DNA from: a virus
Strand: one strand, 5' to 3'
IMG/VR virus record: IMGVR_UViG_3300043399_000826
Coordinates: 1 to 41,066 of that record
Length of the DNA: 41,066 nt
The position numbers were made by a program, and so were the translations under genes. Positions 1 through 23,789 of this stretch are shown in pieces. Under the pieces are notes generated by a model. The model saw nothing but the letters and a program-made list of their open reading frames with translations. It was not told the DNA's origin and searched no databases. Positions within the stretch are counted from its first letter, which is position 1. Every line of letters starts with the position of its first letter.

Positions 1-2000
1 AAATGATATATTGAATTCATCTCCAGTAATGTTAACATTTCTTACATAATATGTAATACCAGGTAATATTCCACCTATTAGATTACTAAATGTTATGGGT
101 GTACCTTCAACAAAACTACCTCCACTAACAGTGACCACAGTCTCGGGTGCTACTGAAAATGAGGTTACACTTAATTGAGAACTACCCACATTTTCTGTAA
201 TTCCACCAACAGTTTGACTTAGCGTTATATAAGGTGCACCCGTACCTATCATACCCAAATCTGTTAACTGCGTTGTCAACGAGACTGTAGGACCATTAGG
301 AGCTTTACTAATAGTAAATCTGTTGCCAGGTAAAATATCTTTTACATAATATGTGGTGCCCAATTCAACTAAACCCAAAGATTCTTGGCTAAAGATTATG
401 GGCATATTTACATACAGTGAGTCAACTGAGTCGCATAACAAGGTATTATCAAGTTGTAGAGTTTCTGTTACATTAACGGTTATTAATCCTAATTCATTTA
501 TATAGTAAAGGCCCTCCGCTAATCCGTGGAAGTCGTCTTTTATAGTTAATGGAAGGTTTACATATAAATTATCTAACCCATTTTCAAAGTCAGATAAAAC
601 AATCCTATTAAGATTATCTATCGTGACTGCTATTTGACTAGACAATAATCCTGATCCTTCTAACGCTACCCCAGTTCCCGTACCTATATCAGTAGTAGCA
701 ACAAAAGTACCTCCCACTTGTGGCACCCCTATATATCCCACAGAATTCCAGTTAGTGGTACCTATAGTATAAATTCTATAAGTATTGCCTGGTATTAACT
801 CACTGACATTAACAAACAAATTACCTATCTGATCGACAAATTCAGTTGATGTATCAAATAATGTAAACTTCTGACCATTAATTTGTCCTGGACTTACAGG
901 TAAAGATATATTGATAACCATATTTGTACCTGAATCAGTTGTGAGTCTTACTACATCCTTTTGGTTAGTTATAATTGATGATCCTACAACATTTGAAGTT
1001 ATATTTAATAATGGGCCAAACAATGATGTTGCTAATTTTATTTGATTAGAAGATAGTATTTCTGAAACATAATAAGTTGTACCTGAAACTACTCCGCCCA
1101 TCGATGGATAGAAGGCTGTACTTACGGCTTTACCTAGACCTTCAACTGCCACACCTGTTTTTAATGGATTTCCAACTGACCTAGCTATAAATGTACTACC
1201 TACTGAATATGTTTCACCTATAGTTCCTGCGATAGAATTCCAGTCAGTATTACCCACTGTATAAATTCTGTAGGGATTTCCTACAATGAATGATCCATCA
1301 TTAACAAATTTTCCTGGTTCAACGACAACAATTGTACTACCTTCCGCATATCCTTCATCTACGGTTCCTGCAATATAATTCCAATCTGTTGTACTTAACT
1401 CGGTAATTCTGTACTCTTTACCAACTTCTAACCAACCTGCAAATGCGATTATATCAGTAACTATTACCGCATCGCCTACAGTAAATCCTACTGTAGAATC
1501 TAAAGTTATAGAATCATTACTGCTATCTGTTTGAGATAAGTTTGTATAAACTGGATTTTCTTCTGTGGACATAGTAAATCTTTGATTATCCACTACAGTT
1601 GTTACATAATAAGGTACATTTTCAATTATTCCACCAAAGGTTTGCCCAGTAAAAAATATAGGTGTACCAATGAATAACGTATTCGTTCCACCTGAACCTG
1701 TATTATATAAAGGTATTGTTATATAATTTGTTCCTGCCTCAGTATTACTTACAGGAAGTATGCCAGGATAATTTAATGTAAGTATTGCAGTATTTGTTTC
1801 ATTACCTGTATATCCTAATAATCCACCTGAGCCCACTGTGCTTGTACTCATAGGCAATATGTCACCGTCTACTGTTGCAGAAATAGTAAACTTAGTATTA
1901 TCTATTACAGATTTTACATAATATGTGGTATTAGTTAGTAAGGTAGTAGTTCCTGGATCCCCACTAAAGTAAATTGGCATACCTATTGTGAAGCCCAAAG
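1..2000 (-). repeat. Degenerate beta-rich repeat modules in the giant protein
   Basis: Two module types recur. One reads G(I/T)TYYV(K/R/S)-x(6-9)-F(T/N)IS, with copies near plus positions 43-60, 350, 1072, 1610 and 1915, and more distant copies near 6145 and 12113. The other reads YRI-x-(T/E)-(V/I/L)-G/S-(N/T)-T-(D/N)-W-N, then a Val-Gly-x-x-F strand, with copies near 1390-1430, 1230-1285 and 705-795. Repeats of both types are common in giant proteins of marine phages (recalled, not searched). Confidence 0.6.
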
Positions 2001-5000
2001 TAGATTGTGATGCATTATCTGTGCCAGTCACTGGTTGTAATGTAATACTGTTATCTAAACTTGAGGTACTAATAATGTTGCGTGTTAGCGAAGACCACTT
2101 CAATACCTGTTCGTTCTCTACATCAGCAATTTCAAATGGTATTCCTCCTCTGCTTGCTAAAATCTTAGCTATATTAGGTTGAGTGCTTTGTAAACTCAGT
2201 GACGAGCTTGCTAATACAGCATTATAATATGAACCTGCAAAGAAAGAACTATAGAATTTACCTGCTTCCCAATCGATTAGATCACTATTATAAGTAGTTC
2301 TGTCAAATCTTAATGTTATGTTGTTTTCTCTTACAGGACTTGCAGTTGTTATACAGCTTGCCTTAGCGCCCAAATTCAATGAATGATTGGCACCTGATCC
2401 TGCATCATAAAACTCTATTCTATCTTGGTTTCTAACAGCATCACTAAAGCTGCGATATAGCCCTACAATATAAGTAGGGGTAGTTTCTAATACGTTTACA
2501 TAATACCATTGATTAGGTTGTAACCCTCCTATAGGAGTTGTGTCTGTTGATACTTTATATTGAATCAAATCCCCAGTAACTAAATCAGGAGCAAATATTT
2601 GTATAGTATTAGAAACAACATTAACCTGATTAGATGTAAATACCGATGATATTGCGCTATCTATTCTAATTTCGGGAGTTACAGCATAACCTCTTCCAGG
2701 ATTTTCAACTTCTATTTGCAGAATAGTATCACCACTCATTACAGCTTTTAATATAGCTGCCTCAAGAGGTGCAGGATAAACATTAGTATCTATATAAGCA
2801 CTTACTTTAGGAGGTTCCGTATATCTTCTGCCACCATCTAATACCACTACTGCGGGTATATTCATGTATATTTGTGTGCCTGGCGAGTGCGTACTTATTT
2901 GTGTTCCGTCTACTCCCCTAAAAATGCCTGTCAATAAATTTAGGTTCCTGTCTACATCAGCGTATGATATTTTCTCACTACCTATAGTTATCACGCCACT
3001 GATAGGGAACCCCGATGCATTATCTACTGTAATGAATGGAGAATTTAACGATATGTATGATGCCAATACTGTTATAGGATAGTTATTCTGACCTACTAGG
3101 CTTAGTCCTCTGTTATTAAACCAATTACTATATTCAGGATTTTCCCAAATAGGGTTATCGGGTGTATATTCGTTAACCTGATTTGGATTAGAATATACTA
3201 ACATTGGAGTAATAAATTGAGTGTAATTGGGATTATAGTCTGCAGGTAAATCAAAGTCAGTAATGGTGCCTCCATATAATTCTTCGCCTGTATACTTAAA
3301 TACAAATTCTTTAATAACTACGTGATAAGGTTTTACTTCGTTTATATATCCTTCTAAGAAATCTTGATTATCGCTTTGGAAAACTTCATAGGGTTTTAAC
3401 TGACGAAGAGTATGGAATACATCAATAAAGGATGTCTTATTTAACCACGGCAAGTAGTTTTGTGATTCTAAACTTTCGTTTTGAATGTATTCAAATAGTG
3501 TAATTAATCCACGATTTCTATAAATCAAAAGCTCATCTATTAGTATTTCTTCATTCAATGCGCGTAAAATATATCTTGTTTCTTCACTTGGATATTGGTC
3601 GTATGGTACTGTATCAAAGAAGTTGTCGCCGAATCCTGTGGATGTTTCTTGATAATCCCATAGACTTGAATTAAATCTTATTGTGCCACCTGAAAGACCT
3701 ATTCTTTCCCAAGTACCTACGTTGTCTACAACCCTATAAATGTATGTTTCACTAGAGCCATTGTTGTTTTTACTCACACGTACAATAGTATTAGGTGCTA
3801 TATTTAAAGTAGATAAATCTGCGTATAAGGGAACTTGTATTACTGACTTAGTTGTATCATCATAACCTGGTGCCCACCAGTTAATGTATTCCCAATAATC
3901 AGGAGTATCATATAATGGTAATGGGGGGCCTTCCCACAGTGGATTTCCTACTGTAGAGGGATTTATATTTCCTACCTTATTCAAAAATGTGCTTGCGGTA
4001 TTTCTAATCTCAGTAATAGGGAACTGAACTAATACGCTGTTTACATATTGGAAATAATTCTTTAATGCACCATAACGGAATAAGAAAAAGCTCTGTCTAG
4101 GTCTTGCTAAAATACCAGTTTGTACTGCTTTAGGTAAGAATGGGTCAGGAACTACTTTACCCATTTCATCAACGCCTGACATACTATCAAGTAGTCTGTC
4201 ATACAATCCTTGAGGCTGTGAACTTAATAAGCTAGGTAATCCAGGTAAGAAATCATCAGCAAAATTAGAACGTATTAAATCGAATTGTGTATGTGCTACT
4301 TCATTAGATGTACCTGTATTAAATCCAATATGTAGTACTGAATCATTAGCGTTTATATAGGCAGCCGCATTATATAATCCATATAGATTAGGTAGCAATG
4401 GTGCAAAGTAGCTTATACCTGAATTTTTAGGATTAGCAATATATGATTGCAGTATAGTATCAGATAATGTTTTACCTTGTTTAGTAAAGATAATGTTCGT
4501 ATTGCGTACCCAGAAATAATATACAGGGGCAAGCTCACCTGAGGGTGTTATATCAAATTGTATGCTATAGCTTTGTATGTCAAATACAGTACCTGGTCCT
4601 GCATATGCTATAGGTGGCACATTAGATGCTACCCAACTGTACACTGCCACATCACTACCTGGGAAAACTATTCCCCATACTTCACTATTGTATGTGTTAT
4701 CATCTTGGTGATAGTTTAAGAACCTGATATTTGTTGTGTCTAACCAAAGTTTACCTACATGTTCTGCACCCCAGAATAGTGTGGAGGTATTATTAACATC
4801 ATCATTAAGTGTGTTATAACCAGCAGGGTCTACATTAGAGATATAGTCTAAATTTTCTCTTGCAACACCCAAAATTTTACCTTGTAGCGGATCTATGTAG
4901 TCCAAATTGTCTAGTGTGTTATTAGTTTCTGCACTGAAAATTTGTATATTTTCAACTTTAGAAATATCCACAATAGCTGAAGATTGACGGTAAATTGTCC

Positions 5001-8000
5001 AGTCAGGTTTACTTACTAGGCTTTCAAAAACATTTACCTTACCATTAATTGTGCCAGGTAGGAATCTAGGAGTGCCTACTATAACTGTGTTTTTATTAAA
5101 GTCTAAAGCTTCGCCATAATATGGTTGTAAGCCATAATCTAATGTTGTATCATTAATACTTTGAGCATATACATACTTACCAATGTTGGCGAAAGATTCG
5201 TTGTAATTAGGCAAGTAATCAAACATGTATACTGCACCTGCATTATTAAACTGATCTATCCATTGCGTTGCATTATTATCAAATACTGTATCATTGTCTA
5301 ATGTATCATCAGTAATAACATCAAATGTCGTAGCAACAAATCTTGGACCTACAGGGGCAGATATTACTAGTGATCCCATTTCACTAAGTGCAATAGTTTT
5401 ACCAAACTGAGTAGGTCCTGTATTATGTGGGCATTTAATTTCTTGTGTTTTTACATAGGTAACTAAGCCCAATTCTTTTAAACCTTCAGGCGCATCAGAA
5501 TCAACATCTACTATAGTTAATTTAGATCCTGCTGTGCCTAAAGTACTGTCGATCAACTGAATAGTTATTGTGCCATTAATATTTGCTACTGCTGACACAT
5601 TTGGTATATTAGCATTAGTTATGGCTATTGCCGTAGACGTAGCATCACCTACTGGTATCTGTACAGCAAATCCGTTTATTAAAATAGTACGTGGAACAGT
5701 TATGGCGACAGATGTATTACCTGTTATGTAACCGTATTTTTCCCCACCATTTGTAAATCTATAAACTGTACCTTCTTGATTGTTACCATCTAAATCAAAT
5801 GGTGCTCCAACTAAAATTTCATTAGCAAAATTATTTGTCGCAGTAGAATATCCAAACTGAGTACCTACTCGTTCATCTTTTCCTGTCGTTAGTTCTTGAG
5901 CTAATCTAAATGTTTGCCCACTTATACTTAATAGATCGCCTGGCACTAAGGGCTTAACAACAATAATTTCGTTGCCTATATAAGCATAATCAGCTTCAGT
6001 AAGCAACTCACCATTAACTGTAACAAAAAGTTCTGTTAACTGTGGATAAGCATTCATTGTTAAACCACTAGTATCACCTAATTCTATTACAGAACCACCC
6101 TTTTCAGCCGATATTGTGAATTTGTCAACACCTATGAATTGTTTTACATAATAAATTGTATTGGGTGCTATATTACTACCTGAATAAGGACTAGTAAAAA
6201 TAATAGGTGTGTCTACTGCCAAACTTCCTGCAGGTATAGGAGATATTGTTAATGTATTATTACTAGATAAAGTAGCTGTTATTATTAGTGGTTCTGTATC
6301 ACTTGGTGACCAAGGTAGAGCAAATGTCTGTATTCCACCTTCAATTGTAGGCAGTTGAATGTTATAGTTCTGAACTATACGGTGGAATACATAAGTTTTA
6401 CCCCAATTCTGAGCAGTAATGCCATCAGCATCAGGAGTGCCTATGATAACGGTATCACCATAATAATCAGTACTTATGCTGTAACCAAAATTGTCAGCGG
6501 CTCCTAAAGTAGGAATCAATAAAGCATCGTTGTTAGTTACATCAGGATCTACATTCGTAACTAACTCGTATTGATTACTGCTTTGACTTAGCCTATAAAC
6601 ATATACTTTAGCTAAGTCAGGTGCCGAAACATAAATCCATTTTTTATCACCTGAAATCGCTACTGATTTGCCCCAATTTGTTGAAGAGCCTACTGCAGGT
6701 AATATTTGGAAAGGTTCTAATCTGTTTACGGCATCGCCTTCATCATTTATAACCACAAATTGATACAAATGAACTCTCGGAGTCCCCGTTGTTTCGCTGA
6801 TAGCAAACAAATTATCCTGGTATGCTATGGTTGTACCAAAGCTTGAACCAAATGTCAACTCTTGTCTTAAATCATATTGGAAACTCAATGTATTATAAAC
6901 ATAACGATATACTTTGCCTAAACCCGCATCGCCTATTAAATAACCTGCTTGAGGTGTATATGCTACAGCACTTCCATAGGTTAAAGAGGGTTGATCTGTA
7001 AATTCTGTTAACGGATTGTAGTTTATAGTTTTACGATATACTGCCCAATCTCCTGTTTGGCTTTCATCGACCCAAACTTTATTATTTGAAAATTCTGCCG
7101 ACAATAATGGGGTATTAGCGATGTCGCTGGGTTTACTTACTCGTTGTGATTGGAATAATAATCCAATACCTTGTCCTGCTATATCTCTAATAGATGGACT
7201 CAAGCTCAAATTAATAATTACTCTGTTTGGATCCACTACTAACGCTACTAAGTAGTAGCCATCAATTTGTTCATTGAAGTTTACAATAGAAAAAATATCA
7301 AATTGTTTTAAATTATGGGGCCTATCAAATGTTATAGTTACTGTCTCGTTCAAATTGTTTTTAGCAAAAAGAACTTGACCTAATGATAATGGAGTCAATA
7401 TTTGCCAGTTACTTAAATAATTGGCTAACCAAATATAATCTCTTACATATAATTGCGACAGGGGTACGATAACTCCATACTTATTTGTACCAGTAGGTAG
7501 ACCTGAGTAAAAATAAGATGATAGTTTTACATCGTCAAGATTCACGTATCCTGCATCCATGTAAACCTGATTAGGAGTATTTACTGGTAGTGTTTGCAGA
7601 ATATTTTTTGTTGTTACAGGCCTACTATAATTGAATAATGAATATAAGGGTACCTCTTGTTGTGATCCAACTGTAGGTGTTCCATCATTTAATGCCACTA
7701 TAGCTGGATTACCAGTTAGAGAACTTTGTGCTAGTTTAAATTCTACGAAATTTCTTGAAAGCGTTCCACCAAATTCTGCTGCCTTTATAGCCCAATTTTC
7801 ATATACATCATAATCTATTCCGCCCTGAGGTAATACGGCACCTCTGAAGGCATCCACTGCATTACGTGTACCTTTATTTCTCATAATGTTTTGATATAGA
7901 TTTACTTGTGTTATATCTGTCAAATCAGCAGTAGACATATAATCACGTGGTCTAAAACCAATCAATGAAAAGCTCAATAGATCAGCATCTTCTTCAAGAT

Positions 8001-11000
8001 TAGCTTTATTTACATCATAATATAATGTGCTTTCAAAGGAACGTGTACTGCTATTAGGCAATAATCCTTTTTGAACTTCGTTATAATCTGTTTCTTTCCA
8101 ATCTGTTTCCTGAAAGGTTTCTCTTGGTTGAATAACTCTTAGCGCAATGTAATATTTGTTTTTAAATGTTACTATAGAACCCGTTGTATATTTTGTAGCC
8201 GGATTCCATTCAATAATATTATCTTGATTTAGTATAAATCCTGCTGCATCAATAGTACCATTCCATTCAGCAGTTTTACTACCACGAACATATATACGGT
8301 TTTGTTTTAATCCTGTAATTAAATTATAGATAGTATCGTTGAATAATGTTGTATTATCGAACACAATACCATGTTCAAAATTGTTGATATTAAATTGTCC
8401 ATACCCTATAGAGTCACCTTCGTTTAAAGGTTGGACAGCAAATAATGTTTCTTCGCGTACAACACTTAAGTCTTTGCTTTGTATAGGATATAGATTCTGA
8501 TTCAATACAAAGTTCTGATTAGTAATTGTTAGCGGCTGAACTATATAACCGTCTTTGTTTATCGTTAAATTGGTAGCGGCAGGATTCAATGTAGTAATAC
8601 TTCCCTCTTCCCATCCTAACTGTGCCCAATATAAAAATTCAGCAACCATTTGTCTCCAAGTTATTTCAAGTCCATTTTCTACTTGGTTGAAAGTCATTCC
8701 TTGTTCTGTAAGATATGCTCCATAACTAGTCAAGAATGTTGCTATTTCCTGCACATTATTAAATTCTGTACCATAAGGAACAAATAATCTTCTATCCGTA
8801 TAGTCGACTGGAACTCTCACAGTTAAGTTTTCTATGTCAATAGTATCGTTGTTCCCATTATTTTCAGGAACTAGAATTGTAAAGTATGCTTTTGTTTGCG
8901 AATTACCATATACAGCAAATCCCTTACTAGTTTTTTGAACTACAACACCGCTATAAATTATTCTATCAAAGGGTTGATTATCATATAACAGTAAAGCATA
9001 GCTTTCATCAGGTATTAACAATGAAGCATTTCTTGAGCTTGGTACGCTTTTTTCAACAAAGAACTTTAATAGATTTTTATCGCTAAAGCCTGCTAATCTA
9101 TATACTAATCTAACGTCTAAGTTATTTAATAATGATGTTATATTAGCTGTGGCGTCGACTCCTAATTGTTTTTCATAGTCTACAATCCAGTTGATGTAAC
9201 TTGTTTTAGCTATACCTGAACCGTATACTTGAATATCTTTTATGATTAGGTGTCTACGATCATCAACCAAGTATTGGTTGAATTCTTTACTGTACTTGTA
9301 ATTATCTAAGTCTACCCCTAAGTTAAAAAACTGTGCTGGCTTAGTCAATGCTAATATCTTCATCAAATCGAACGGCCAAGATGAGCTACGACGATATGAG
9401 AATTCTGCAGGACCACTGTCGCCTACTTTCCAGTTACGCTTGAATAGTTTTCCTGTATAGTTGCCTACGATAGCGTTAAATGGAGACAGTAATTCACCAC
9501 TACTATCTACAGGTAGTACGGTGAGTAATTCTGGGCGAACATATTGAGGTTTTACTACTGGAGCTCCATCATTATAATCTATACCCTGAGCCAAATCATT
9601 CCATAATACTAAGTTGTCGCTTGTATAGGGTGCAGGTCCATACTTATTTTCCCACCAAGTAGGTTGTGTAGTATAACCAATCATTTGCCAAGGTTGACTA
9701 TTTACATTCGTTGTATCAAAATAATATTGATAAATTCCTCTCCAATTACCTTGTTCTATTGGCTGCTTGTTTATTTTGTTTCCACTTTGCCAATAATTGT
9801 ATGTAAAGAAATCGTCAACATTATATGACTGTGATTGAAAATCTATTCTGTTTTGTCCTACCCAATTTAGGAATAGCTCACTATAAATTTGTAGAATTTC
9901 ATTGTTTGTATAATCTGTTTCTCTCCAGAAACCAGGCATAACTTCAGTTTCAGGTACAGGTATTGAAGCACTAATCTTTAAGTTGTTGTATATTCTCTTT
10001 TCAAACTCTAGTAGTGCCTGATCCCTAAAATCCACCAATCTACCTGTGACAGGATCATAACTACCATATAATTTATTATATGATCCGTCGTGTCCTCTAA
10101 TGAAATATGTAGGTATAGTATAATTGTTGTCTAATACTACACTAGGTATAGTAGCAGGATATAAACCTAACTTAGTGGGTGTATTGGGTATGTAACTACC
10201 ATAAGTTTGATTATATTCATTAACTATAATAGTATCTCCCACTTGGAGTGAAACATTTACAGTTAATGAAGGGGCTATATCACTGATTACATAATCTACA
10301 TTTCTTATAAGTTGATTGTATTGTAATAAATCTCCTACTTTTCTTACAAGATAAACTAATATGCCATCATAGTTGGCTTTCTTGAAGTCATAAACTTTAC
10401 TTAAAGGATAAACTGATGTTGTCAAGGAATTTATATTAAAGGAATATGTATTTGATATGTAGGGAGCCTTAGAAGGTAGCATATCACTCCAAAAGAACGG
10501 TGATGTATCCGTCCTTGAAGTAGTAATTTGAGTTAACGCATCATCTAAAATATCTGCAGGGGATTGATAAACACTATATTCTGTTTTGTTTACGACGTCA
10601 ATCAATAATGTTTTAAAGTTAATATAACTTCTGCTATTATATTCTACTGCATTAAAGAAATTATGATTTTGATTTTGATTTCTTAAAAATGTACCTGGCA
10701 GTACTAGTGAGGCGCTATTCTGTATAATTCTATTACCATATGGTACAACATTACCTAAATCACGATAGTTGTTTGATCCAAAAACTTGTCCAACGGCGTT
10801 GGGGTTATTATAAAAAATAGATTGATATTGTCCTCTAATATCGCCCACGTTTACAGTTGTAAGAGTATCATTAAACGGATTATTAGTTAAGTTTATTGGC
10901 ACACTGTAGTAAGCATTACTACTAACTTGGTCACTGATTATCAATATTTGTACTACAGTTTGTTCTATAGGATCCAATCCTTCTGTAATTGTGATTAAGG

Positions 11001-14000
11001 TATTAGTACCTGTGGCAACAGTATATTGACTAGATGTCAGTAATGTGTTATTAGCATAAACTTGAATTATTGGCCAATTTGTATAACTATCGTCTACAGG
11101 TAACACATCGACATCAAATATTGGTGATTGAGTTTCTGGATTAAAATTAAATTCAAAAACTTGATATTGTACGCTAGGGGAAATTGTAGTTTTCCAGCCT
11201 GTTTCTCTAACAAAATTATCTCTCGTAAAGTAATTATAAACATATCCTGTGTTAACGTTCTGAGTGATAGGTTTGTTGTTTAATACATATTCAAAGGTAT
11301 CTGAATTTAGTGATACGTCAAAGCTTATATCACCTATATTATCTATTGAGCTATATCTTAATGGGAAATTAAGTATTATATCATCCAATCCCGTGCCCAC
11401 ACCATAAGCAAATAACTTGCATCCTTTAAAAGAGCTACCTGAATAATAATCTTTATTTCCAAAACTTATACCATTGCTATCAAAAATATCAAACAACGGA
11501 GGTTGGTTTAAAGCAACTTTTTGTTGTGATGTAAACCAGCCATTTTCGTAACGAAAATCTTTACCTTCATTATAAAATCCCCTATAAGCCACAACTTGGT
11601 TATTATCAAGAATATTGCCATCGTTAGCTTCAAATAGTGTAATTACTAAAGGACCACCTGGCACTAATTGAGAAAGGTTAGTTACAAAAATCTTGTTTTT
11701 TAAATTTTCATCTTTAGCGAAAACTATTCTAGCTCCGTCAAATAGCTGAAAATTTTCCAAGTTTGATGTAGACATACTTAAGCAAGCTTCAGAAGTACCT
11801 ACAATAGTATTAAATGCATCCCATCCAACTTGTATTTCAGTTATTTCGTAAACTTCAGGTAACTCAGGTTTGATCCTTTTTATTGAAATTATCTGAGAAT
11901 TATTAGGGAGCATTAATGTGTCGTCTGCTATATATTGACCAGGTTCTGGCGAATTAGTAATATCTGTGCTCTTTACAGTAACAATTGTAGACAGAGGTGT
12001 TACTGTAATGTCCATTGAGGTATTGATACCAGGTAGTACATCAGATTGTAGCATTGCTGGTCCAAATCTTTCCAGTGATATTGTAAATAAAGTACTGCTT
12101 ATAATTTCAGAAATGTAATAAGTAATGCCTGATTGCAGTAAACCAAACTGGGTTACAGGAGAATTTGCAATTTTCATATTAGTGAATGTTACTTCATCAC
12201 CATACTTAAATCCTTCCGTACTCAAACATTCTATTCGGTTACCTACTAGTGAAGTAGATAGGCCTGTTGTATTAATATTACCTGTAATTGGTTCTATTGT
12301 AGCCGTTCCAGGATATGCTGTCCAAGCAGTTATGTCAGGGTAATAAACTGTTTTTCCTGCAGCTTGTTCAAACGCATCTGTTGTTCTAAAATCCATAAAA
12401 TCAATTGGTGCTTTACCCTCTGTACCTGAATTGAAAAGTTTCAGATTAGGATAAAATTCAATTATAGGTCTGATAGCTTTGTTTTGTTTATTAGCATACA
12501 AACTAATTAATGTAGGATCATTGTTGTAACTCGCTGTTGCATTAATAACGTCTATGTGAAACCAACGATTACTTCTTGACCAAGCATTTCTGCTTATTGA
12601 ATTTTTAGCTATCGTAATATAATCAGGTGTTTTAGGTATGAATAGGTTAGCGTCATAGTTTCCAATATCATACGGTGTGTCGTCAAAAGGTAAAAATTCA
12701 GTTTGGGTAAATGTCTGAGGAGCGATAAGGTCTGTAACCGGAATAAGTTCTATAGCAGTGCCTACTCCTTCTACATAGTATTCACCCTCAAGATAAGACT
12801 CGGGTATAACATCTCCCTGAAATACTACTTTTAATCCATTTGTAAATACAACACCATTATTGGCAGTATATGATTTTTTACCTAAAATTTCATTAACATT
12901 TAATGGATTTGTTGCATTGGTATCTATGAGTTTAATTACGCCTACTTTACCCGCAGTAGTACCATCTTGATAATATAAAGTATCTAGCTCTGCGCTTAGA
13001 TAAGGGATTATTTCAATGGCTCCAAAAACATTTTTGAAGAAGTTTCTACCTACCCATTCAGTGCCATATTGTACTGTAATTTTTTCTGCTGTTGGTATTG
13101 CACCAATTTCTTCCAATGTAATAATTGGATCGAGATCCACAAATCCTGCATAGACAATTCTGTAAAAATAATTATTTTCAACTTGGTCCACTCCTGTGTT
13201 ATAAAACATCACAGTTAAATCGTTGAGTGAAGAAATACCATCTATATTGCCAAAGGTTGAAAGTAAAGCATTATTAATTTGATCGTAAGATAATGTAGAT
13301 ACTAAATCTACTGTATTGTTTCCAGGAAGATTGTATTGATCTTGTGCTGTTTTAAAGGGTACGTTAAATGTAACTGTACCTTCACTAGCACCATTATTTT
13401 CTACTCCTAAAACTTCCCTAGTGTTTAAGTTTGATTGTACTGGGCTAGCTCCTGAAACACCTGGAGCGCCTTGAATCCAAAATTGAGAATTTTGATTTAC
13501 GACAAACCGATAACTACCCCCTCTCAACAAAGTAAGAGTAGGATTTAGGCTGCCAGGTAATGATGGATTATCTGTGATATTATAAGCATTAGGTAAACTT
13601 GATACTAAGTATTCTTCTTCATTAAATACTGTGTCTTGAGTAACTATAACTGCTTGTGGCCCATTAGGCAACCAATAATATTGATTATAATTTATGATTT
13701 TATCTAGATCAATAAAGGAATCCCAAGAATAAAACTGGCTATTAAATAGTCTGTTATTATCCTCTGTTAGCCCCCCTTCTAATTTGATAGAGTCTATTAT
13801 CCCAGGATAGCTAATGAAATCTTTAGCGACTGTTTCATTTGCTTTAGTAAAAACAACGCCTGGTTCTAGTTGATAATCTTTTCTAGTTTTAGTGGGTTCT
13901 GTTACATAAAAATCTTTAGGATCAACTCCATAACCAAATTTACTACCCACAAACCCTTGAATAACTTTAGTATTAGGTTGATCTACTATTTGATCTAATG

Positions 14001-14079
14001 TGGCTCGTAAGAATTGAGCGTTAGTGGATGTTTTAAATATTTCTGGAAGAAAATTTAGTGTCCGGATTCTAGTTGCCAT
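1..14079 (-). CDS. Giant virion structural protein downstream of gp6 (partial, C-terminus outside window)
   Basis: The frame opens at the ATG at 14079-14077 and I found no stop in the many lines I read codon by codon to base 1, so at least about 4,693 residues are encoded and the end is missing. The N-terminus (MATRIRTLNFLPEIF..., then NQYYWLPNGP near residue 145) resembles the very long, uncharacterised structural proteins that follow gp6 in marine T4-like phages. Residues about 2330-3010 hold FG-GAP repeats (for example FGYSISTDYYGDTVIIGTP near 2530 and FGKTIALSEMGSLVISAP near 2890), typical of an integrin-alpha-like beta-propeller. NEVKPYHVVIKEF lies near 3585. The last 700 visible residues are beta-rich repeats built round YYV and DWNSIAG-type motifs. 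It starts 27 bases after the gp6 stop, with only a weak ribosome site. A role as a baseplate-attached fibre or adhesion protein is inferred from position and domains. It could also carry gp7-like wedge functions at its N-terminus. Confidence 0.85.
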   Translation of the reverse strand, partial: MATRIRTLNFLPEIFKTSTNAQFLRATLDQIVDQPNTKVIQGFVGSKFGYGVDPKDFYVTEPTKTRKDYQLEPGVVFTKANETVAKDFISYPGIIDSIKLEGGLTEDNNRLFNSQFYSWDSFIDLDKIINYNQYYWLPNGPQAVIVTQDTVFNEEEYLVSSLPNAYNITDNPSLPGSLNPTLTLLRGGSYRFVVNQNSQFWIQGAPGVSGASPVQSNLNTREVLGVENNGASEGTVTFNVPFKTAQDQYNLPGNNTVDLVSTLSYDQINNALLSTFGNIDGISSLNDLTVMFYNTGVDQVENNYFYRIVYAGFVDLDPIITLEEIGAIPTAEKITVQYGTEWVGRNFFKNVFGAIEIIPYLSAELDTLYYQDGTTAGKVGVIKLIDTNATNPLNVNEILGKKSYTANNGVVFTNGLKVVFQGDVIPESYLEGEYYVEGVGTAIELIPVTDLIAPQTFTQTEFLPFDDTPYDIGNYDANLFIPKTPDYITIAKNSISRNAWSRSNRWFHIDVINATASYNNDPTLISLYANKQNKAIRPIIEFYPNLKLFNSGTEGKAPIDFMDFRTTDAFEQAAGKTVYYPDITAWTAYPGTATIEPITGNINTTGLSTSLVGNRIECLSTEGFKYGDEVTFTNMKIANSPVTQFGLLQSGITYYISEIISSTLFTISLERFGPAMLQSDVLPGINTSMDITVTPLSTIVTVKSTDITNSPEPGQYIADDTLMLPNNSQIISIKRIKPELPEVYEITEIQVGWDAFNTIVGTSEACLSMSTSNLENFQLFDGARIVFAKDENLKNKIFVTNLSQLVPGGPLVITLFEANDGNILDNNQVVAYRGFYNEGKDFRYENGWFTSQQKVALNQPPLFDIFDSNGISFGNKDYYSGSSFKGCKLFAYGVGTGLDDIILNFPLRYSSIDNIGDISFDVSLNSDTFEYVLNNKPITQNVNTGYVYNYFTRDNFVRETGWKTTISPSVQYQVFEFNFNPETQSPIFDVDVLPVDDSYTNWPIIQVYANNTLLTSSQYTVATGTNTLITITEGLDPIEQTVVQILIISDQVSSNAYYSVPINLTNNPFNDTLTTVNVGDIRGQYQSIFYNNPNAVGQVFGSNNYRDLGNVVPYGNRIIQNSASLVLPGTFLRNQNQNHNFFNAVEYNSRSYINFKTLLIDVVNKTEYSVYQSPADILDDALTQITTSRTDTSPFFWSDMLPSKAPYISNTYSFNINSLTTSVYPLSKVYDFKKANYDGILVYLVRKVGDLLQYNQLIRNVDYVISDIAPSLTVNVSLQVGDTIIVNEYNQTYGSYIPNTPTKLGLYPATIPSVVLDNNYTIPTYFIRGHDGSYNKLYGSYDPVTGRLVDFRDQALLEFEKRIYNNLKISASIPVPETEVMPGFWRETDYTNNEILQIYSELFLNWVGQNRIDFQSQSYNVDDFFTYNYWQSGNKINKQPIEQGNWRGIYQYYFDTTNVNSQPWQMIGYTTQPTWWENKYGPAPYTSDNLVLWNDLAQGIDYNDGAPVVKPQYVRPELLTVLPVDSSGELLSPFNAIVGNYTGKLFKRNWKVGDSGPAEFSYRRSSSWPFDLMKILALTKPAQFFNLGVDLDNYKYSKEFNQYLVDDRRHLIIKDIQVYGSGIAKTSYINWIVDYEKQLGVDATANITSLLNNLDVRLVYRLAGFSDKNLLKFFVEKSVPSSRNASLLIPDESYALLLYDNQPFDRIIYSGVVVQKTSKGFAVYGNSQTKAYFTILVPENNGNNDTIDIENLTVRVPVDYTDRRLFVPYGTEFNNVQEIATFLTSYGAYLTEQGMTFNQVENGLEITWRQMVAEFLYWAQLGWEEGSITTLNPAATNLTINKDGYIVQPLTITNQNFVLNQNLYPIQSKDLSVVREETLFAVQPLNEGDSIGYGQFNINNFEHGIVFDNTTLFNDTIYNLITGLKQNRIYVRGSKTAEWNGTIDAAGFILNQDNIIEWNPATKYTTGSIVTFKNKYYIALRVIQPRETFQETDWKETDYNEVQKGLLPNSSTRSFESTLYYDVNKANLEEDADLLSFSLIGFRPRDYMSTADLTDITQVNLYQNIMRNKGTRNAVDAFRGAVLPQGGIDYDVYENWAIKAAEFGGTLSRNFVEFKLAQSSLTGNPAIVALNDGTPTVGSQQEVPLYSLFNYSRPVTTKNILQTLPVNTPNQVYMDAGYVNLDDVKLSSYFYSGLPTGTNKYGVIVPLSQLYVRDYIWLANYLSNWQILTPLSLGQVLFAKNNLNETVTITFDRPHNLKQFDIFSIVNFNEQIDGYYLVALVVDPNRVIINLSLSPSIRDIAGQGIGLLFQSQRVSKPSDIANTPLLSAEFSNNKVWVDESQTGDWAVYRKTINYNPLTEFTDQPSLTYGSAVAYTPQAGYLIGDAGLGKVYRYVYNTLSFQYDLRQELTFGSSFGTTIAYQDNLFAISETTGTPRVHLYQFVVINDEGDAVNRLEPFQILPAVGSSTNWGKSVAISGDKKWIYVSAPDLAKVYVYRLSQSSNQYELVTNVDPDVTNNDALLIPTLGAADNFGYSISTDYYGDTVIIGTPDADGITAQNWGKTYVFHRIVQNYNIQLPTIEGGIQTFALPWSPSDTEPLIITATLSSNNTLTISPIPAGSLAVDTPIIFTSPYSGSNIAPNTIYYVKQFIGVDKFTISAEKGGSVIELGDTSGLTMNAYPQLTELFVTVNGELLTEADYAYIGNEIIVVKPLVPGDLLSISGQTFRLAQELTTGKDERVGTQFGYSTATNNFANEILVGAPFDLDGNNQEGTVYRFTNGGEKYGYITGNTSVAITVPRTILINGFAVQIPVGDATSTAIAITNANIPNVSAVANINGTITIQLIDSTLGTAGSKLTIVDVDSDAPEGLKELGLVTYVKTQEIKCPHNTGPTQFGKTIALSEMGSLVISAPVGPRFVATTFDVITDDTLDNDTVFDNNATQWIDQFNNAGAVYMFDYLPNYNESFANIGKYVYAQSINDTTLDYGLQPYYGEALDFNKNTVIVGTPRFLPGTINGKVNVFESLVSKPDWTIYRQSSAIVDISKVENIQIFSAETNNTLDNLDYIDPLQGKILGVARENLDYISNVDPAGYNTLNDDVNNTSTLFWGAEHVGKLWLDTTNIRFLNYHQDDNTYNSEVWGIVFPGSDVAVYSWVASNVPPIAYAGPGTVFDIQSYSIQFDITPSGELAPVYYFWVRNTNIIFTKQGKTLSDTILQSYIANPKNSGISYFAPLLPNLYGLYNAAAYINANDSVLHIGFNTGTSNEVAHTQFDLIRSNFADDFLPGLPSLLSSQPQGLYDRLLDSMSGVDEMGKVVPDPFLPKAVQTGILARPRQSFFLFRYGALKNYFQYVNSVLVQFPITEIRNTASTFLNKVGNINPSTVGNPLWEGPPLPLYDTPDYWEYINWWAPGYDDTTKSVIQVPLYADLSTLNIAPNTIVRVSKNNNGSSETYIYRVVDNVGTWERIGLSGGTIRFNSSLWDYQETSTGFGDNFFDTVPYDQYPSEETRYILRALNEEILIDELLIYRNRGLITLFEYIQNESLESQNYLPWLNKTSFIDVFHTLRQLKPYEVFQSDNQDFLEGYINEVKPYHVVIKEFVFKYTGEELYGGTITDFDLPADYNPNYTQFITPMLVYSNPNQVNEYTPDNPIWENPEYSNWFNNRGLSLVGQNNYPITVLASYISLNSPFITVDNASGFPISGVITIGSEKISYADVDRNLNLLTGIFRGVDGTQISTHSPGTQIYMNIPAVVVLDGGRRYTEPPKVSAYIDTNVYPAPLEAAILKAVMSGDTILQIEVENPGRGYAVTPEIRIDSAISSVFTSNQVNVVSNTIQIFAPDLVTGDLIQYKVSTDTTPIGGLQPNQWYYVNVLETTPTYIVGLYRSFSDAVRNQDRIEFYDAGSGANHSLNLGAKASCITTASPVRENNITLRFDRTTYNSDLIDWEAGKFYSSFFAGSYYNAVLASSSLSLQSTQPNIAKILASRGGIPFEIADVENEQVLKWSSLTRNIISTSSLDNSITLQPVTGTDNASQSTLGFTIGMPIYFSGDPGTTTLLTNTTYYVKSVIDNTKFTISATVDGDILPMSTSTVGSGGLLGYTGNETNTAILTLNYPGILPVSNTEAGTNYITIPLYNTGSGGTNTLFIGTPIFFTGQTFGGIIENVPYYVTTVVDNQRFTMSTEENPVYTNLSQTDSSNDSITLDSTVGFTVGDAVIVTDIIAFAGWLEVGKEYRITELSTTDWNYIAGTVDEGYAEGSTIVVVEPGKFVNDGSFIVGNPYRIYTVGNTDWNSIAGTIGETYSVGSTFIARSVGNPLKTGVAVEGLGKAVSTAFYPSMGGVVSGTTYYVSEILSSNQIKLATSLFGPLLNITSNVVGSSIITNQKDVVRLTTDSGTNMVINISLPVSPGQINGQKFTLFDTSTEFVDQIGNLFVNVSELIPGNTYRIYTIGTTNWNSVGYIGVPQVGGTFVATTDIGTGTGVALEGSGLLSSQIAVTIDNLNRIVLSDFENGLDNLYVNLPLTIKDDFHGLAEGLYYINELGLITVNVTETLQLDNTLLCDSVDSLYVNMPIIFSQESLGLVELGTTYYVKDILPGNRFTISKAPNGPTVSLTTQLTDLGMIGTGAPYITLSQTVGGITENVGSSQLSVTSFSVAPETVVTVSGGSFVEGTPITFSNLIGGILPGITYYVRNVNITGDEFNISF
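5050..7090 (-). repeat. FG-GAP beta-propeller repeats inside the giant protein
   Basis: Within the giant frame, successive segments of about 60-150 residues each carry FG/YG/WG, then S/A-I/V-A/S, then a hydrophobic strand ending in G/S-x-P. Read directly from the sequence: YGSAVAYTPQAGYLIGD, FGTTIAYQDNLFAIS, WGKSVAISGDKKWIYVSAP, FGYSISTDYYGDTVIIGTP, FGYSTATNNFANEILVGAP, FGKTIALSEMGSLVISAP and YGEALDFNKNTVIVGTP. Each is followed by a VY-x-F/Y strand. That makes about seven blades, the number in integrin-alpha propellers. Inserts between blades, around 5900-6350, contain a YYVK-type repeat module. Confidence 0.75.
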
Positions 14080-14106
14080 AAATTATCTCTATTTTATATT
14101 ATATAC

Positions 14107-17100
14107 TTATCTTTGTTGTAATTCAAAGGGAGTAAGTGCAGCAATTACTTGAACATCATCGGCTGTCGCCGCGTTTACGAAAATTTCATAAGGGGCACAT
14201 TTTATTTCATACAAATCACCAAAAGGTTTAGTGGGATCGTTAGGTACTAATACTACTGAACTTACTAATTCCCCTACTGTTGCATGTAAATATGCACTTA
14301 ATTCTGAAAAATAAAAGGTATCACCAAAGTTCCAATTGTTAATGTTAAAATAATTATTCATAGCAGTAAGCACTGCGCTCTTTATTTCACTATTACTTGC
14401 ATTAGTTTTTGATGCTTTAATTACTTTGATAGTAGCCCTTAATGCAGGTGCTGCTTTTGGTCCAAATAAAGGTTTAAAAATAACACTGTTTAGGATAACT
14501 GAATCAGTAAGCATTTTATAATTCTGGATTTGTCCATACTCTTGGTTGAGTTGATTTATGCTTGGTCTGTCAGGTTCAGGAACTGTATTAGTAGTATCCT
14601 GAATCCAATTTTGATATGCGGTATAATATGCTTGTGTTACAACATACAAATCAATAATGTTTGTAGTAGCAGGATCAATTCTTGTAGTATTGTTACTATT
14701 ATGGCGATATTGGAATTTTAAACCTTGGCGTCCCGGTTTCATCAAATACTGTATTTGTTCTACTAAGGAAAATAAAGGAGTAATAGATTGAGGATCTTCT
14801 ACTGTAATGTAGAATTTATTTTCAGACGTTGCGTAAAATAATTGACCTAAAGGATATTCATACTTTACTATTTCAATCGCATTTTTTGTACTATATGTAT
14901 AAATTACATCACTTGTAGGTATTAATTGTTCTCTTGTAAGAGACACAGCATCCTCTACAATTTCAAAGAACGCATAGATACCTGAGTTAGTTCCGCCATA
15001 CTGATACCCCGTAATTCTGTTGAAGAAGTCTGGATCATTGGTAATCAAACTATTGTTTATATCTATACTTGCAACTTCAACTTCAAAGTCATTTACATAT
15101 CCATCGCTTTGTATAGGTTGATCTACTATAGTCAATTTTAGTTCTCTACCCAAAGAGTTTGTTGAATTTGGTTGTGTATTTACAGGTAGTATAGAAACAT
15201 AATCTTGTAATAGTTTCCCAGAGAATGGGTCATAAATTAATTTACCTGCAGCAAATGCAAATCTAATATCGGTTATACTACCATAAAAATAAGCTAATGA
15301 CCTATAAGTTATTGAATACCTATTGTCCCCTAAACTTAAAAATCTCACAAACCAATTTTGATTGTCAAAGTTTTGCACGCTCCATCTATCTTGTGCTATA
15401 GTCAATGAGTTATTAAATACTAAAGAAAAATTCTGTTGAAGTTCCATTCTTAAAACACATTCATTGACTACATCATTTGAAAGGCTGTTATCAAATACTG
15501 GAATTACTTGTAATATTTGGACTCCATTAGGAACGAACCCATTTAAACTTACTGGTCCTGTGCCATTAATAAAATTGCCCTCACCAAAGTTATTGCCATC
15601 TTCGATAACATTTAACACTGTTGTCCAAATTTGTGTAGGATTGCTTCCTGGTAATCCTGCAACTAACCTATTGTTTGCATCAAAATAAAATCCACTAGGT
15701 GCTTGCAATAGTATTTGTGCTCCCTTAGTTACATATTTCAAGTTACCTGTTGAGAATGTTCCCAACGGTACCGGTGCTCCTGCTTGATTATAAAAATAAC
15801 CAGTAATACTGTTAGCGTTCACCGTAGACAATTTCCAAAATACATTATTGTCTCCCGTACTGCTATTTATAGCATATCTGGGATAATATTGAGTGTAATA
15901 TTGTCTTGCACGATTTTTATCCAAGGCTTCTGCTAAAGTACCAAACAAGAATCCCCTTATCACAGCACTATTAGTAATGGTTAAAGTTAAAAATCCATCA
16001 GCCTCACTTTGATACAACGCACCATCATTACCAAAAGAATTAACTGAGCTATATTTTCCTGTAGGATCTAATGTGTCTAGATTTTTAGAAACACCTACGC
16101 TTGATCGATTCAATGCTTTTGATTTGATTATTGAACTATAAAGAGTATAAGGGAAATTATTGTAATCTTCGCCATTTACCATTCTATTTTGTGTATAATA
16201 TCTTGTAGGGGCGCGCTGTTTAATTTCAGCTAATGGTTCTCTAGCCTGTGCATTTGAAACTGGTAACTGCAATTCTAGTCCTAACGTTAGGACTTCGGGC
16301 CTACCTTGCCTACTTATATATGAAATAGTCACAGTAATACCTTGCATTTCACTTGGATCTATAGTGTATGTTAGTGCGTTGCCTCCTCGTACATATGCCC
16401 TAAATGTTCCTACAGGTATTTCAGAGAATACTCCATCACCAAATATGTAACTCACCTGGTCATTAAAACGAGATCCAACAGAGAATATCTTTCTATCTGA
16501 CTGTTCTGTTTGTAGATAGGCATCTGCATAAACGTTTTCTACTTTGCGCCATAAACCAAAAGTAGCATTGTCATCGCTGACCTGATATAACCAAGTATCG
16601 GTATTATTGACACCTTGAATATCAATGTCTATAACTTGGTTACTAATTTGCTGTTCTAATGTAAAGTCAAAGTTCTGTAATGTTCCCTGTTTGAAGTAAA
16701 AGAAGAACCCTGTATTAGGGCTGCCAAATCCTAACTTATCATTACGATACAGCATATTGAATCGACCTGTAGGTGCAGGGGGAATTTCGTAAATATAATC
16801 TTCATCTAAGCTTGTAACACTTACAAGCTCAAAGCTCATAGTAATACCATCAACTGTAGCACTAAAAGGTACAATTGGTAATGTGTCAGGCGGTATGTTT
16901 AAAGTATATTCATCTGTTTTTACAGATAAAATATCCGCACTATTTCCAGGACGACCTACGCGCTGTGTGTTAATCAATGCTGCGTTGATAATAGTATTGT
17001 ATTGTTCTAACCAATTTGGGTTAGCTGGATCGTTCCACAGTACTGTAATGTTGCTTAAGTTAAGTCCATTTAAGTCAGTTAGATTTTGTGTAGTGCTTAT

Positions 17101-17466
17101 GCTGACTACTTTCAAGTATCCCTGTGCAGCTAAGTTTCTTTTTGGTGTGTATGAAACCAAATTAGCTAATTTTACTACACTATCGCGTCTTTCCGCGGTA
17201 TCGATAAAGTTCTCTCGTGTGTTTAAATCATTGCGGAATGCTAGACCTTGACCCATGAAGGCAATAACATCCATCAAAGCGATGAATTCAGAGCTTTCAA
17301 TGTAGTCGTTAAAAGTTTCTGGATAGTAAAGACGTAAATAATCTATAAAACTTTTTCTCAAAGTTTCATAATCATAGCTGCGAAAATCCGCCTCACGGAA
17401 AGTTTGATATATAGCTTTCCAATCATTTACACCAAAAAGTGCCGACTGCCTGCTGTTTGTAGCCAT
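14107..17466 (-). CDS. 6: Baseplate wedge subunit gp6
   Basis: A 1,119-residue gp6-family protein, much longer than T4 gp6 (about 660 residues) but in the range of marine T4-like relatives. The first 120 residues carry the family's best conserved stretch: a segment with LRLYYPETFNDYIESSEF, then ALMDVIAFMGQ, LNTRENFIDTAERR and LVSYTPKRN. gp6 dimers form the inner ring of the baseplate and clamp wedges together round the hub; the C-terminal part belongs to the baseplate-J-like fold that contacts gp25. The stop lies 27 bases before the giant gene, and gp25 is 49 bases upstream, so these three genes are probably co-transcribed. A late-promoter-like GATAAATAC sits 18 bases before the ATG. The start is supported by the conserved N-terminus. 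Extra length is spread through the middle, so additional surface domains are likely. Confidence 0.95.
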   Translation of the reverse strand: MATNSRQSALFGVNDWKAIYQTFREADFRSYDYETLRKSFIDYLRLYYPETFNDYIESSEFIALMDVIAFMGQGLAFRNDLNTRENFIDTAERRDSVVKLANLVSYTPKRNLAAQGYLKVVSISTTQNLTDLNGLNLSNITVLWNDPANPNWLEQYNTIINAALINTQRVGRPGNSADILSVKTDEYTLNIPPDTLPIVPFSATVDGITMSFELVSVTSLDEDYIYEIPPAPTGRFNMLYRNDKLGFGSPNTGFFFYFKQGTLQNFDFTLEQQISNQVIDIDIQGVNNTDTWLYQVSDDNATFGLWRKVENVYADAYLQTEQSDRKIFSVGSRFNDQVSYIFGDGVFSEIPVGTFRAYVRGGNALTYTIDPSEMQGITVTISYISRQGRPEVLTLGLELQLPVSNAQAREPLAEIKQRAPTRYYTQNRMVNGEDYNNFPYTLYSSIIKSKALNRSSVGVSKNLDTLDPTGKYSSVNSFGNDGALYQSEADGFLTLTITNSAVIRGFLFGTLAEALDKNRARQYYTQYYPRYAINSSTGDNNVFWKLSTVNANSITGYFYNQAGAPVPLGTFSTGNLKYVTKGAQILLQAPSGFYFDANNRLVAGLPGSNPTQIWTTVLNVIEDGNNFGEGNFINGTGPVSLNGFVPNGVQILQVIPVFDNSLSNDVVNECVLRMELQQNFSLVFNNSLTIAQDRWSVQNFDNQNWFVRFLSLGDNRYSITYRSLAYFYGSITDIRFAFAAGKLIYDPFSGKLLQDYVSILPVNTQPNSTNSLGRELKLTIVDQPIQSDGYVNDFEVEVASIDINNSLITNDPDFFNRITGYQYGGTNSGIYAFFEIVEDAVSLTREQLIPTSDVIYTYSTKNAIEIVKYEYPLGQLFYATSENKFYITVEDPQSITPLFSLVEQIQYLMKPGRQGLKFQYRHNSNNTTRIDPATTNIIDLYVVTQAYYTAYQNWIQDTTNTVPEPDRPSINQLNQEYGQIQNYKMLTDSVILNSVIFKPLFGPKAAPALRATIKVIKASKTNASNSEIKSAVLTAMNNYFNINNWNFGDTFYFSELSAYLHATVGELVSSVVLVPNDPTKPFGDLYEIKCAPYEIFVNAATADDVQVIAALTPFELQQR

Positions 17467-17515: not shown

Positions 17516-17965
17516 TCAGTTTATTGTAGCCGTGCTTGTTTGTTGGTCAAAAAATAACGATAGCTGTTCTGCTTGATTAAAAGGTGATACCGCGAACTCT
17601 ACTTCAACAAGTATGCCATTGTCTTGTGGAAAAACAGATACAGTATTAAGTATTAGTCTAGGATCTTGTGCTGCAACTCTGCGTATTTCAGTTTCTAGCT
17701 GTGATGTTACGTCAAAGGTATTTGGCTCAAAAACAAATGACCAAAGCGTAGTTCCATAGTCAGGCTTACCTACTTTTTCACCTTTTTGTATGTTGAGTGC
17801 ATTTACTAGGTCTTGAACTACTAAGGGATAATCAACTAGCCTGAATTTTTTACCAGGAATTATTGGCCTAACCGTTGATCCCACACCTCCGTCTACCCCT
17901 GAATTCAAATTGGTTGACCGAGGTTTATTAGCATTAATAGTACTGAAACCGATATATGTTGGCAT
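17516..17965 (-). CDS. 25: Baseplate wedge subunit gp25
   Basis: A 149-residue gp25/gpW family protein (T4 gp25 is 132 residues). It begins MPTYIGFSTINANKPRSTN, and the core contains GKKFRLVDYPLVVQDLVNAL, PDYGTTLWSFVFEPNT and EIRRVAAQDPRL, matching the family fold and its conserved Arg-containing turn. gp25 is the conserved sheath-initiation and wedge core protein that binds gp6 and gp53 and to which the first sheath ring attaches. The start fits the family N-terminus. The stop of gp5 lies only 9 bases upstream, consistent with co-transcription from the gp5 side. A CATAAATAC at 17971-17979 looks like a late promoter but would start transcription almost on the ATG. Confidence 0.93.
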   Translation of the reverse strand: MPTYIGFSTINANKPRSTNLNSGVDGGVGSTVRPIIPGKKFRLVDYPLVVQDLVNALNIQKGEKVGKPDYGTTLWSFVFEPNTFDVTSQLETEIRRVAAQDPRLILNTVSVFPQDNGILVEVEFAVSPFNQAEQLSLFFDQQTSTATIN

Positions 17966-17970
17966 AATTA

Positions 17971-17979
17971 GTATTTATG
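17971..17979 (-). promoter_or_regulatory. Possible late promoter box between gp5 and gp25
   Basis: The minus strand reads CATAAATAC, overlapping the stop codon of gp5. If it were used like other late boxes, RNA would begin within a base or two of the gp25 ATG and have no ribosome site, so it may be a chance match. Confidence 0.25.
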
Positions 17980-20900: not shown

Positions 20901-21154
20901 CCATAGCCTGTATTTGGTGGATTACCATTGGTTCTACCATAAAAAGGTGTCATATAGCTTACAGTTACCCAACTTTCAGCATTATTAGGGTCATCACCTG
21001 AAAAGTCTGCTATGTATACTCTTAACCTACCTGAACGTATAGGATCTATATTATCTTTGACTACTGCAAATACGGGAACACTTCTGATATTAGCATTACC
21101 TGCATCAGGCTGACTTGCTTTTGTAGGACCTCTAGGCTTGAAAAAATCTTCCAT
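17975..21154 (-). CDS. 5: Baseplate central spike protein gp5 (lysozyme-less, long C-terminal extension)
   Basis: A 1,059-residue gp5/VgrG-type spike. Residues about 25-140 form the OB-fold (VPVFAVVKDNIDPIRSGRLR, GMWTSPPDVGTTVICIFVNG). Residues about 255-400 give the spike core: GRRGGHTFIMDDGD, then LGHQILLSDSGQCLHI and short repeats (SVNIRTQGDLNLHAD, NININAAKDLSIQAE) of the triple-stranded beta-helix. T4 gp5 has a lysozyme domain between these parts; none is seen here. After residue about 480 comes an Ala/Pro-rich linker and then more than 500 residues of Ala/Gly/Ser-rich, probably helical sequence ending in a charged coiled-coil-like tail. The ATG follows a good AGGAG, and the upstream gene stops one base earlier, implying coupling. 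The C-terminal half is unlike T4 and its role is unknown. Confidence 0.88.
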   Translation of the reverse strand: MEDFFKPRGPTKASQPDAGNANIRSVPVFAVVKDNIDPIRSGRLRVYIADFSGDDPNNAESWVTVSYMTPFYGRTNGNPPNTGYGNYKNNPHSYGMWTSPPDVGTTVICIFVNGDPNFGFWIGCVPDPDALHMVPAIGASNKIIANTVEADRYGGALFLPVTNINSNDPKIAQTSEFLVQNKPLHSYAATVFAQQGLIRDNIRGPITTNAQRESPSRVGFGISTPGRPIYEGGFTDETIGDAAGQEGQQSGLGVIGRRGGHTFIMDDGDLVGNDRLVRIRTTLGHQILLSDSGQCLHIIHANGQSWIELGKEGTIDMYSTNSVNIRTQGDLNLHADNNININAAKDLSIQAESIKINSEKSIAMKSGTDFTGYAMGKYTWKVDGPMAMAAGGEGSYASAGTMFVNGSKINLNTGSASTVPVTVPPLQTFAHTDTLYDSVKGFAAAPGRLVSIVSRAPAHAPWANAGQGVNVQTKLNAEDNLPKPAAPSVEATNAAAAAVTPPTPTIPTIATVPPTNPISNAVDKNATISLVSAAAVAAATGPAAAAVTQGVAVVEQAGARVAAVGAFAMSPKQMEDAGFLKPGSAEKVLSNINSGISPEKAFDPSFFTGKNGVSNLADFRKNIAAQTIGQVTNMQKAQTGLQNSGIMTGQESATQVGGPILAGSQQGVTKVIDAVKTVSGTIVGDIQTKLTAAKNALTAGNEIVNSIASGNFATKLSDKVTGGLSGIATSLTGMKGIPGLAVIVDGAKSVSEGAFKAITASFKSFKANVPVDTIAEAKKNSDVPEDPTIQSNNLAAKIPGEALKQVGSIASRASGVNNLPGGQQAIDAVVTGAGNFQAQTNSLVANVGNIAKQASTALTNNVSAQSIQQTIGGLKSLTEGLPGRLGGLSALANPQALAGNLAKNALSGLPPGLAAQIQNAIGSLGSGGSSIKIPQVAENTNDRASLDAGTASALGDPGIPPPNYSATLQDRIVSNTQIEATRNRLQASFAGLTAAQQNLNAAKDVVEKNKLLKKDYEMAYAEFMEAKKTLPEGDPKIEELRVKALEEGVKYQQNRIRAT

Positions 21155-23477: not shown

Positions 23478-23789
23478 TTATATTCCTAATGTTCTTACTA
23501 ATACATCTTGTTTAGGTATGTATATTCCTGTACCTGCAACAAAATCAAAATAAGGATCTTTTAGTCTATTTGGGTTTCTTTGTGCAAATACCCACCATAA
23601 TTTAGGATCATTATATAAATCATATGCCAACATATCAGGTCTATATTCATATACCTTAGTTATTTCCCAATATATGTCTGAATCTAGCATAGGTATGGGC
23701 CTATTAATCATAATATCTAAATATTTACCATTAACTATATCTGTGGACAAATAAGGGCTAGTTGCACCATATATTTCATTTGCTGCCAT
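23478..23789 (-). CDS. 53: Baseplate wedge subunit gp53
   Basis: A 103-residue protein of the gp53 family (T4 gp53 is about 196 residues). The N-terminal half carries YLSTDIVNGKYLDIMINR, and the C-terminal part has DLYNDPKLWWVFAQRNPNRL followed by a LysM-like stretch ending in GIYIPKQDVLVRTLG. This combination of tyrosine-rich wedge segment and LysM-like fold is typical of gp53, which bridges adjacent wedges next to gp25 and gp6. I place the start at the ATG at 23789, which overlaps the stop of the upstream gene as TAATG and is preceded by AGAGGAA; an in-frame TTG two codons earlier is less likely. The tight overlap indicates translational coupling with the tube-cap-like gene. Confidence 0.88.
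   Translation of the reverse strand: MAANEIYGATSPYLSTDIVNGKYLDIMINRPIPMLDSDIYWEITKVYEYRPDMLAYDLYNDPKLWWVFAQRNPNRLKDPYFDFVAGTGIYIPKQDVLVRTLGI

Follow-up and report, generated by a model that had tools for sequence, protein, structure and literature searches.

We propose that the gene at positions 1 to 14,079 on the minus strand encodes an oversized baseplate-wedge structural protein of a jumbo myovirus, one whose gene sits where T4 has gp7 (and P2 has gpI) and which carries added modules that would build the outer, host-facing part of the baseplate. We put the probability of this reading at roughly 0.6. The window, by which we mean the whole stretch of DNA analysed, is an IMG/VR record in its entirety, 41,066 bases long. 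In the ORF listing and translation, one minus-strand frame stays open from the ATG at 14,079 to base 1, giving 4,693 codons without a stop, just as the original prediction described. Because the window is the complete record, the missing 3′ part of the gene lies outside it, and about 6,450 codons are expected in all. Gene order beside gp6, the detection of relatives in virions, purifying selection and a modular build support the wedge reading. Counted against it are the lack of detectable gp7/gpI homology, one isolate with its gp6 match elsewhere, the head and packaging category that PHROG gives the family, and an N-terminus that does not fold confidently alone.

The neighbourhood of the gene is that of a baseplate cluster. 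Directly upstream, at 14,107-17,466 on the minus strand, is a gp6-like baseplate wedge gene (phrog_10646, E 1e-263; phrog_219, E 7e-21), a region that hhalign also joins to the T4 gp6 family. At higher coordinates on the same strand lie a wedge gene at 17,516-17,965 that matches baseplate wedge subunit families and is called gp25-like from its size and position, a gp5-like baseplate hub / tail lysozyme gene at 17,975-21,154 (phrog_13211, E 5e-43), and, within a minus-strand block of further baseplate or virion genes, a wedge gene at 23,478-23,795 (phrog_7145) that is gp53-like by position. The plus strand carries genes for a late sigma factor, SbcCD-like proteins, portal, head protease and major head protein, a gene content that marks the virus as a T4-related myovirus. 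Two other plus-strand genes were recorded: a 218-aa gene without a PHROG match between the SbcD-like and SbcC-like genes (27,533-28,189), and a gene for a 907-aa protein (32,566-35,289) that is endolysin-like only at residues 699-812.

This arrangement is conserved. The gp6 gene lies directly upstream of the giant gene in all 77 close loci with an identified start, and the same holds for 72 of the 73 distant loci that were tested. Of nine isolate regions, eight show it too; in the ninth, Salicola phage SCTP-2, the gp6 match is elsewhere in the genome. With a gene order of 53-5-6-7 in T4 and V-W-J-I in P2, gp7 and gpI occupy the slot that the giant gene takes here.

The protein belongs to PHROG 10938, which it matches with E 3e-246 over five stretches (the best at residues 1005-1954). 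PHROG files this family under head and packaging, and describes it merely as a 'virion structural protein'. In tblastn against 50,697 phage records, a query of the first 1,000 residues matched 34 records and one of the first 3,000 matched 58. All 58 were below 60% identity and all were jumbo phages, of the RaK2/121Q/CBB/GAP32, PA5oct, Atu_ph07/Phosso, SCTP-2 and Vibrio 2.275.O kinds, with hosts in Klebsiella, Escherichia, Salmonella, Erwinia, Pseudomonas, Agrobacterium, Salicola, Vibrio and others. Profile match, gp6 adjacency and the presence of both conserved halves in order all place the window gene in the giant, gp6-adjacent family of jumbo phages. The original prediction had likened the N-terminus to giant structural proteins beside gp6 in marine T4-like phages. 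The linkage to gp6 and the structural role stood up, the latter through the virions of CBB and PA5oct, but the likeness to marine T4-like phages did not, as no cyanophage was among the tblastn matches listed. As for virion presence, CBB_236 was detected in the CBB virion with 21 unique peptides and 7.7% coverage (PMC5259590), and the database record of PA5oct gp355 is marked for ESI-MS/MS.

Homologues measured 3,313-4,555 aa in nine isolate records. A wider profile scan of viral contigs found at least 598 relatives, and of the 80 loci kept, 51 had a closed longest ORF of 2,373-5,187 aa, a set that includes Atu_ph07 (L126) and one broken gene (L143). Given these ranges, the window's clade sits at the upper end of the lengths in a large superfamily. 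The extreme length claimed in the original prediction holds as large, but it is not unique: close relatives reach 7,256 aa, and for huge phages a maximum protein length of 7,694 aa has been reported (PMC7162821). The family was already known from isolated jumbo phages; members of this branch greatly exceed those in length and have additional modules of binding type. Among genome contigs, the clade N-terminus found no relative, and a broad profile matched bacterial MAG contigs at 10 loci, a good number of them marine isolates, which does not fix the host.

To describe the build of the protein we used an alignment of diverse members that retained 97 of 112 proteins. In window numbering, conserved blocks fall at residues 1-150, 400-570, 800-950, 1050-2350 and 2900-3620, with variable stretches between them, and past about residue 3,650 the sequence is lineage-specific. 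The isolate segments that match the window protein keep the same order. The N-terminal block (13,630-14,079, minus strand; residues 1-150) has an occupancy of 0.97-0.98 across the 97 members. An AlphaFold2 model of residues 1-610 was confident only at 142-451, leaving the N-terminal 141 residues without a confident fold on their own; its alignment started from 77 sequences with an identified start, of which 36 distinct ones spanned the region and 30 remained after a 95% identity cut. Within this model, a lineage-variable beta domain at residues 151-390 (12,910-13,629, minus) resembles cupredoxins in VIA, with rusticyanin (2cal) at Z 10.2, rmsd 1.8 and 93 aligned residues. No Cys-His set was seen by eye in this domain, and the likeness to cupredoxins is one of fold only.

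The most conserved part of the backbone, forming the first scaffold half, spans residues 1290-2170 (7,570-10,212, minus). In an alignment of 86 sequences, which took in 85 of 87 usable references with two left out, the KGT at residues 2069-2071 is nearly invariant, and the AlphaFold2 model built from it reached pLDDT 83 and pTM 0.70. This model matched no PDB entry with E ≤ 0.001, and in a viral structure library it matched predicted structures of its own family; the window protein sequence likewise matched nothing in the PDB at E ≤ 0.1. The sole credible PDB likeness of the model is a CBM5/12-like (chitin-binding type 3) module at residues 1953-1998 (8,086-8,223, minus). Over 45 residues it superposes on a baseplate chain of phage Milano (8fqc_P1) with rmsd 1.3 and a VIA Z of 7.3. 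Noise in such comparisons usually extends to a Z of about 8, but profile matches to chitin deacetylases and chitinases, with E down to 1e-4, back the assignment.

The main insertion site lies at about residues 2,350-2,950, where members of the window's clade carry FG-GAP repeats. In the window, an FG-GAP beta-propeller with nested modules covers residues 2366-3012 (5,044-6,984, minus), as called by Pfam (FG-GAP_2 at residues 2527-2565, E 3e-9, 37.5 bits against a cut-off of 23) and by our own blade profile, which found three or more blades; counted by eye on the sequence, there are seven blade-like repeats. Since the profile was trained on clade members, its 30 of 30 within the clade is by construction. 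Among distant environmental members it was positive for 44 of 64, whereas none of nine isolates and none of 103 shuffled proteins passed. A search of the open-access literature for phage, FG-GAP and baseplate together found no paper. Beyond the propeller, the second conserved scaffold half (residues 3020-3650; 3,130-5,022, minus) matches all nine isolate homologues at least partly.

Past this half, the variable C-terminal region starts at residue 4100 and runs to the window edge at residue 4693 (positions 1-1,782, minus) as repeated YYV-type and second-type modules. Both module types also occur in relatives, where their copy number varies. The last 173 window residues align to 27 of 29 complete relatives, and a median of 1,755 residues remain beyond that point, although some relatives aligned to a later repeat and so yielded lower values. 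In one relative, L008, the window end corresponds to residue 4,705 of 6,494. From this median and the L008 alignment, a full-length protein of about 6,450 aa is expected, with about 1,750 C-terminal residues missing. No relative is close enough to extend the contig: the last 500 codons match nine loci, at 29-50% identity. Past the window edge, a regular expression found SxDGxxW-like repeats in complete relatives, mostly around residues 4,850-5,500, with at least two matches in 25 of 29 relatives and few outside that region (0.26 per protein after shuffling), and these repeats may form a second propeller. The clade's C-terminal extension of about 2,000 aa was not found in isolates, and the 2,298 C-terminal residues of L008 gave one match, a weak one, among 50,697 phage records. 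Directly after the giant gene, all eight complete relatives inspected have a gene of 204-206 aa; in L008 (26,065-26,685) it is phrog_11259, with no function assigned, and its counterpart would lie just left of the window.

T4 gp7 and P2 gpI, wedge proteins of the TriB type, are homologous. In hhalign the giant matched neither of them (best 1.4%), and the control comparison of T4 gp7 with P2 gpI likewise failed (0.3%). The same method did find jumbo gp6 against T4 gp6 (69%, E 4e-5). Because the control shows that the method is blind here, we do not count the null result for gp7 as a failure, and the wedge assignment consequently rests on position, virion presence and build. The gpI profile was thin, since scans with gpI and gpJ returned near-identical sequences only, and the gpJ loci were not used. 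Similarly, a search for Pfam Gp7_5th in the window record found no match, as did its controls, and the absence of gp7 from the PDB matches listed for the model of residues 1290-2170 proves nothing. The fold comparison with the trifurcation unit of the (gp6)2-gp7 complex covered the models of residues 1-610 and 1290-2170.

The failure of profile comparison to find gp7 homology, together with the adhesin-type character of the CBM5/12-like module, the FG-GAP propeller and the repeated modules, would also suit a protein that is mainly a host-recognition fibre or adhesin, encoded beside gp6 and hanging from the baseplate rather than forming part of the wedge. We consider this unlikely. The most conserved parts of the protein are long scaffold blocks in which the CBM-like module is the only recognised adhesin module, these blocks stay fixed beside gp6 across very divergent phages, and PA5oct has a separate fibre-type gene annotated nearby. 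The same layout, two conserved halves with variable modules between them, could instead reflect a polyprotein or fusion that takes the place of several T4 baseplate proteins, gp7, gp8 and gp10 among them, and is perhaps cut after synthesis, the more so as T4 has gp7 to gp12 at the corresponding place. However, no protease or self-cleavage domain was recognised in the giant protein with PHROG and Pfam, and CBB_236 is listed as a single virion entry (PMC5259590), making this reading highly doubtful. Phage CBB, whose tail bears long hairs, has a 3,340-aa structural protein of the giant family, which raises the idea of a tail 'hair' or whisker protein; this is very improbable, as GAP32 has the giant gene, yet the authors of PMC5259590 expected hair genes to be absent from GAP32.

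With the window protein as query, 125 stretches that encode a relative came up in viral contigs, and 78 loci were retained. A closed, uninterrupted homologue is present in 35 of these; with six identical copies excluded, the 29 distinct ORFs on which our close-clade counts are based span 4,571-7,256 aa (median 6,460). The loci lacking a closed homologue are mostly truncated by the contig end. When the giant gene was compared codon by codon with four relatives, overall pS was 0.71-0.74, with synonymous sites near saturation, and overall pN was 0.15-0.28, with no aberrant or disrupted bin across the aligned codons. The frame is coding throughout and under uniform purifying selection, and the inference in the original prediction that so long a frame is maintained is borne out.

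The original prediction would have been refuted by a disrupted frame in the window or a split gene in relatives; on checking, neither overturned it, apart from scattered broken copies. In the close relative L069, a single in-frame stop follows residue 1,531 (about position 11,235) of a gene otherwise in frame; in the distant relative L143 the gene is split into two ORFs (break at about 13,285), whereas it is intact in its near twin L150 (86-91% identical); and in Salmonella phage SD-6_S16 the copy is disrupted at several places. These breaks lie at different sites and seem to stem from recent mutation or from errors in the sequences. Although such copies exist, the suggestion that the giant frame is an assembly or sequencing artefact is refuted on present evidence by the full-length intact homologues in many separate contigs and by the uniform purifying selection. 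The window gene is a real, intact but incomplete member of its family. The warning that gene callers may miss such frames also has a parallel: Klebsiella phage K64-1 (L379, NC_027399.1) has an open frame of 3,321 codons at 5,917-15,882, for which RefSeq gives one protein of 1,373 aa and numerous tiny ORFs on both strands.

From the presence of relatives in virions and the gp7/gpI position, we infer an enlarged wedge protein whose inserts and C-terminal part would make up the outer, host-facing side of the baseplate. We hypothesize that a scaffold built from the conserved blocks at residues 1-150, 400-950, 1050-2350 and 2900-3650 attaches to the gp6 wedge, presumably with one copy per wedge and six per virion, and that contact with gp6 might be made by the N-terminal 141 residues. 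Modules of the cupredoxin-like, CBM5/12-like, FG-GAP propeller and C-terminal repeat types would protrude from this scaffold, where they may enlarge the outer baseplate, hold fibres and contact envelope glycans, and binding by these modules could be relayed to the wedge and sheath. The length of the protein would then stem from accretion of modules and not from a longer core. A bolder version, which we rate as rather improbable, is that in this clade six copies of one polypeptide of ~6,500 aa (roughly 0.7 MDa) make up most of the outer baseplate and do the work of T4 gp7 to gp12, with the integrin-like FG-GAP propeller between the scaffold halves as a receptor-binding or signal-relay element.

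Across a broad group of jumbo phages, no gene is larger than this one. It has no described function, no solved structure clearly resembles its product, and its annotation is sometimes wrong. The family itself was known but unexplained; what is new here is the longer clade variant with its propeller and C-terminal extension. The resulting map shows two conserved halves, a single variable site at which insertions, often an FG-GAP propeller, are found, and a C-terminal extension specific to the clade, and it indicates where structural work should begin. It also gives a testable idea of the way in which a baseplate wedge protein could have expanded from fewer than 200 to more than 7,000 residues.

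Compared with known systems, the giant gene has the same slot after gp6/gpJ as T4 gp7 and P2 gpI. The wedge proteins T4 gp7, P2 gpI and XM1 gp17 themselves vary in size from 176 to 1,032 aa, and none has a demonstrated sequence or fold match to the giant. Closer kin are the PHROG 10938 proteins RaK2 ORF070, 121Q gp582, CBB_236 and that of K64-1, which have the same place after gp6 and align over both conserved halves, but are shorter (3,321-3,340 aa) and lack the C-terminal extension of the window's clade; the blade profile did not detect the FG-GAP propeller in RaK2, 121Q and CBB. Agrobacterium phage Atu_ph07 gp180 (4,449 aa) and its counterpart in Sinorhizobium phage Phosso (4,555 aa) share the place and the backbone, whereas what they carry at the propeller site is another insert, about 1,500 aa long, in which FG-GAP blades were not detected. 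Pseudomonas phage PA5oct gp355 (3,857 aa), in which the propeller site holds just a short stretch and no FG-GAP blades were detected, shares with the giant its place, its backbone and its N-terminal motif.
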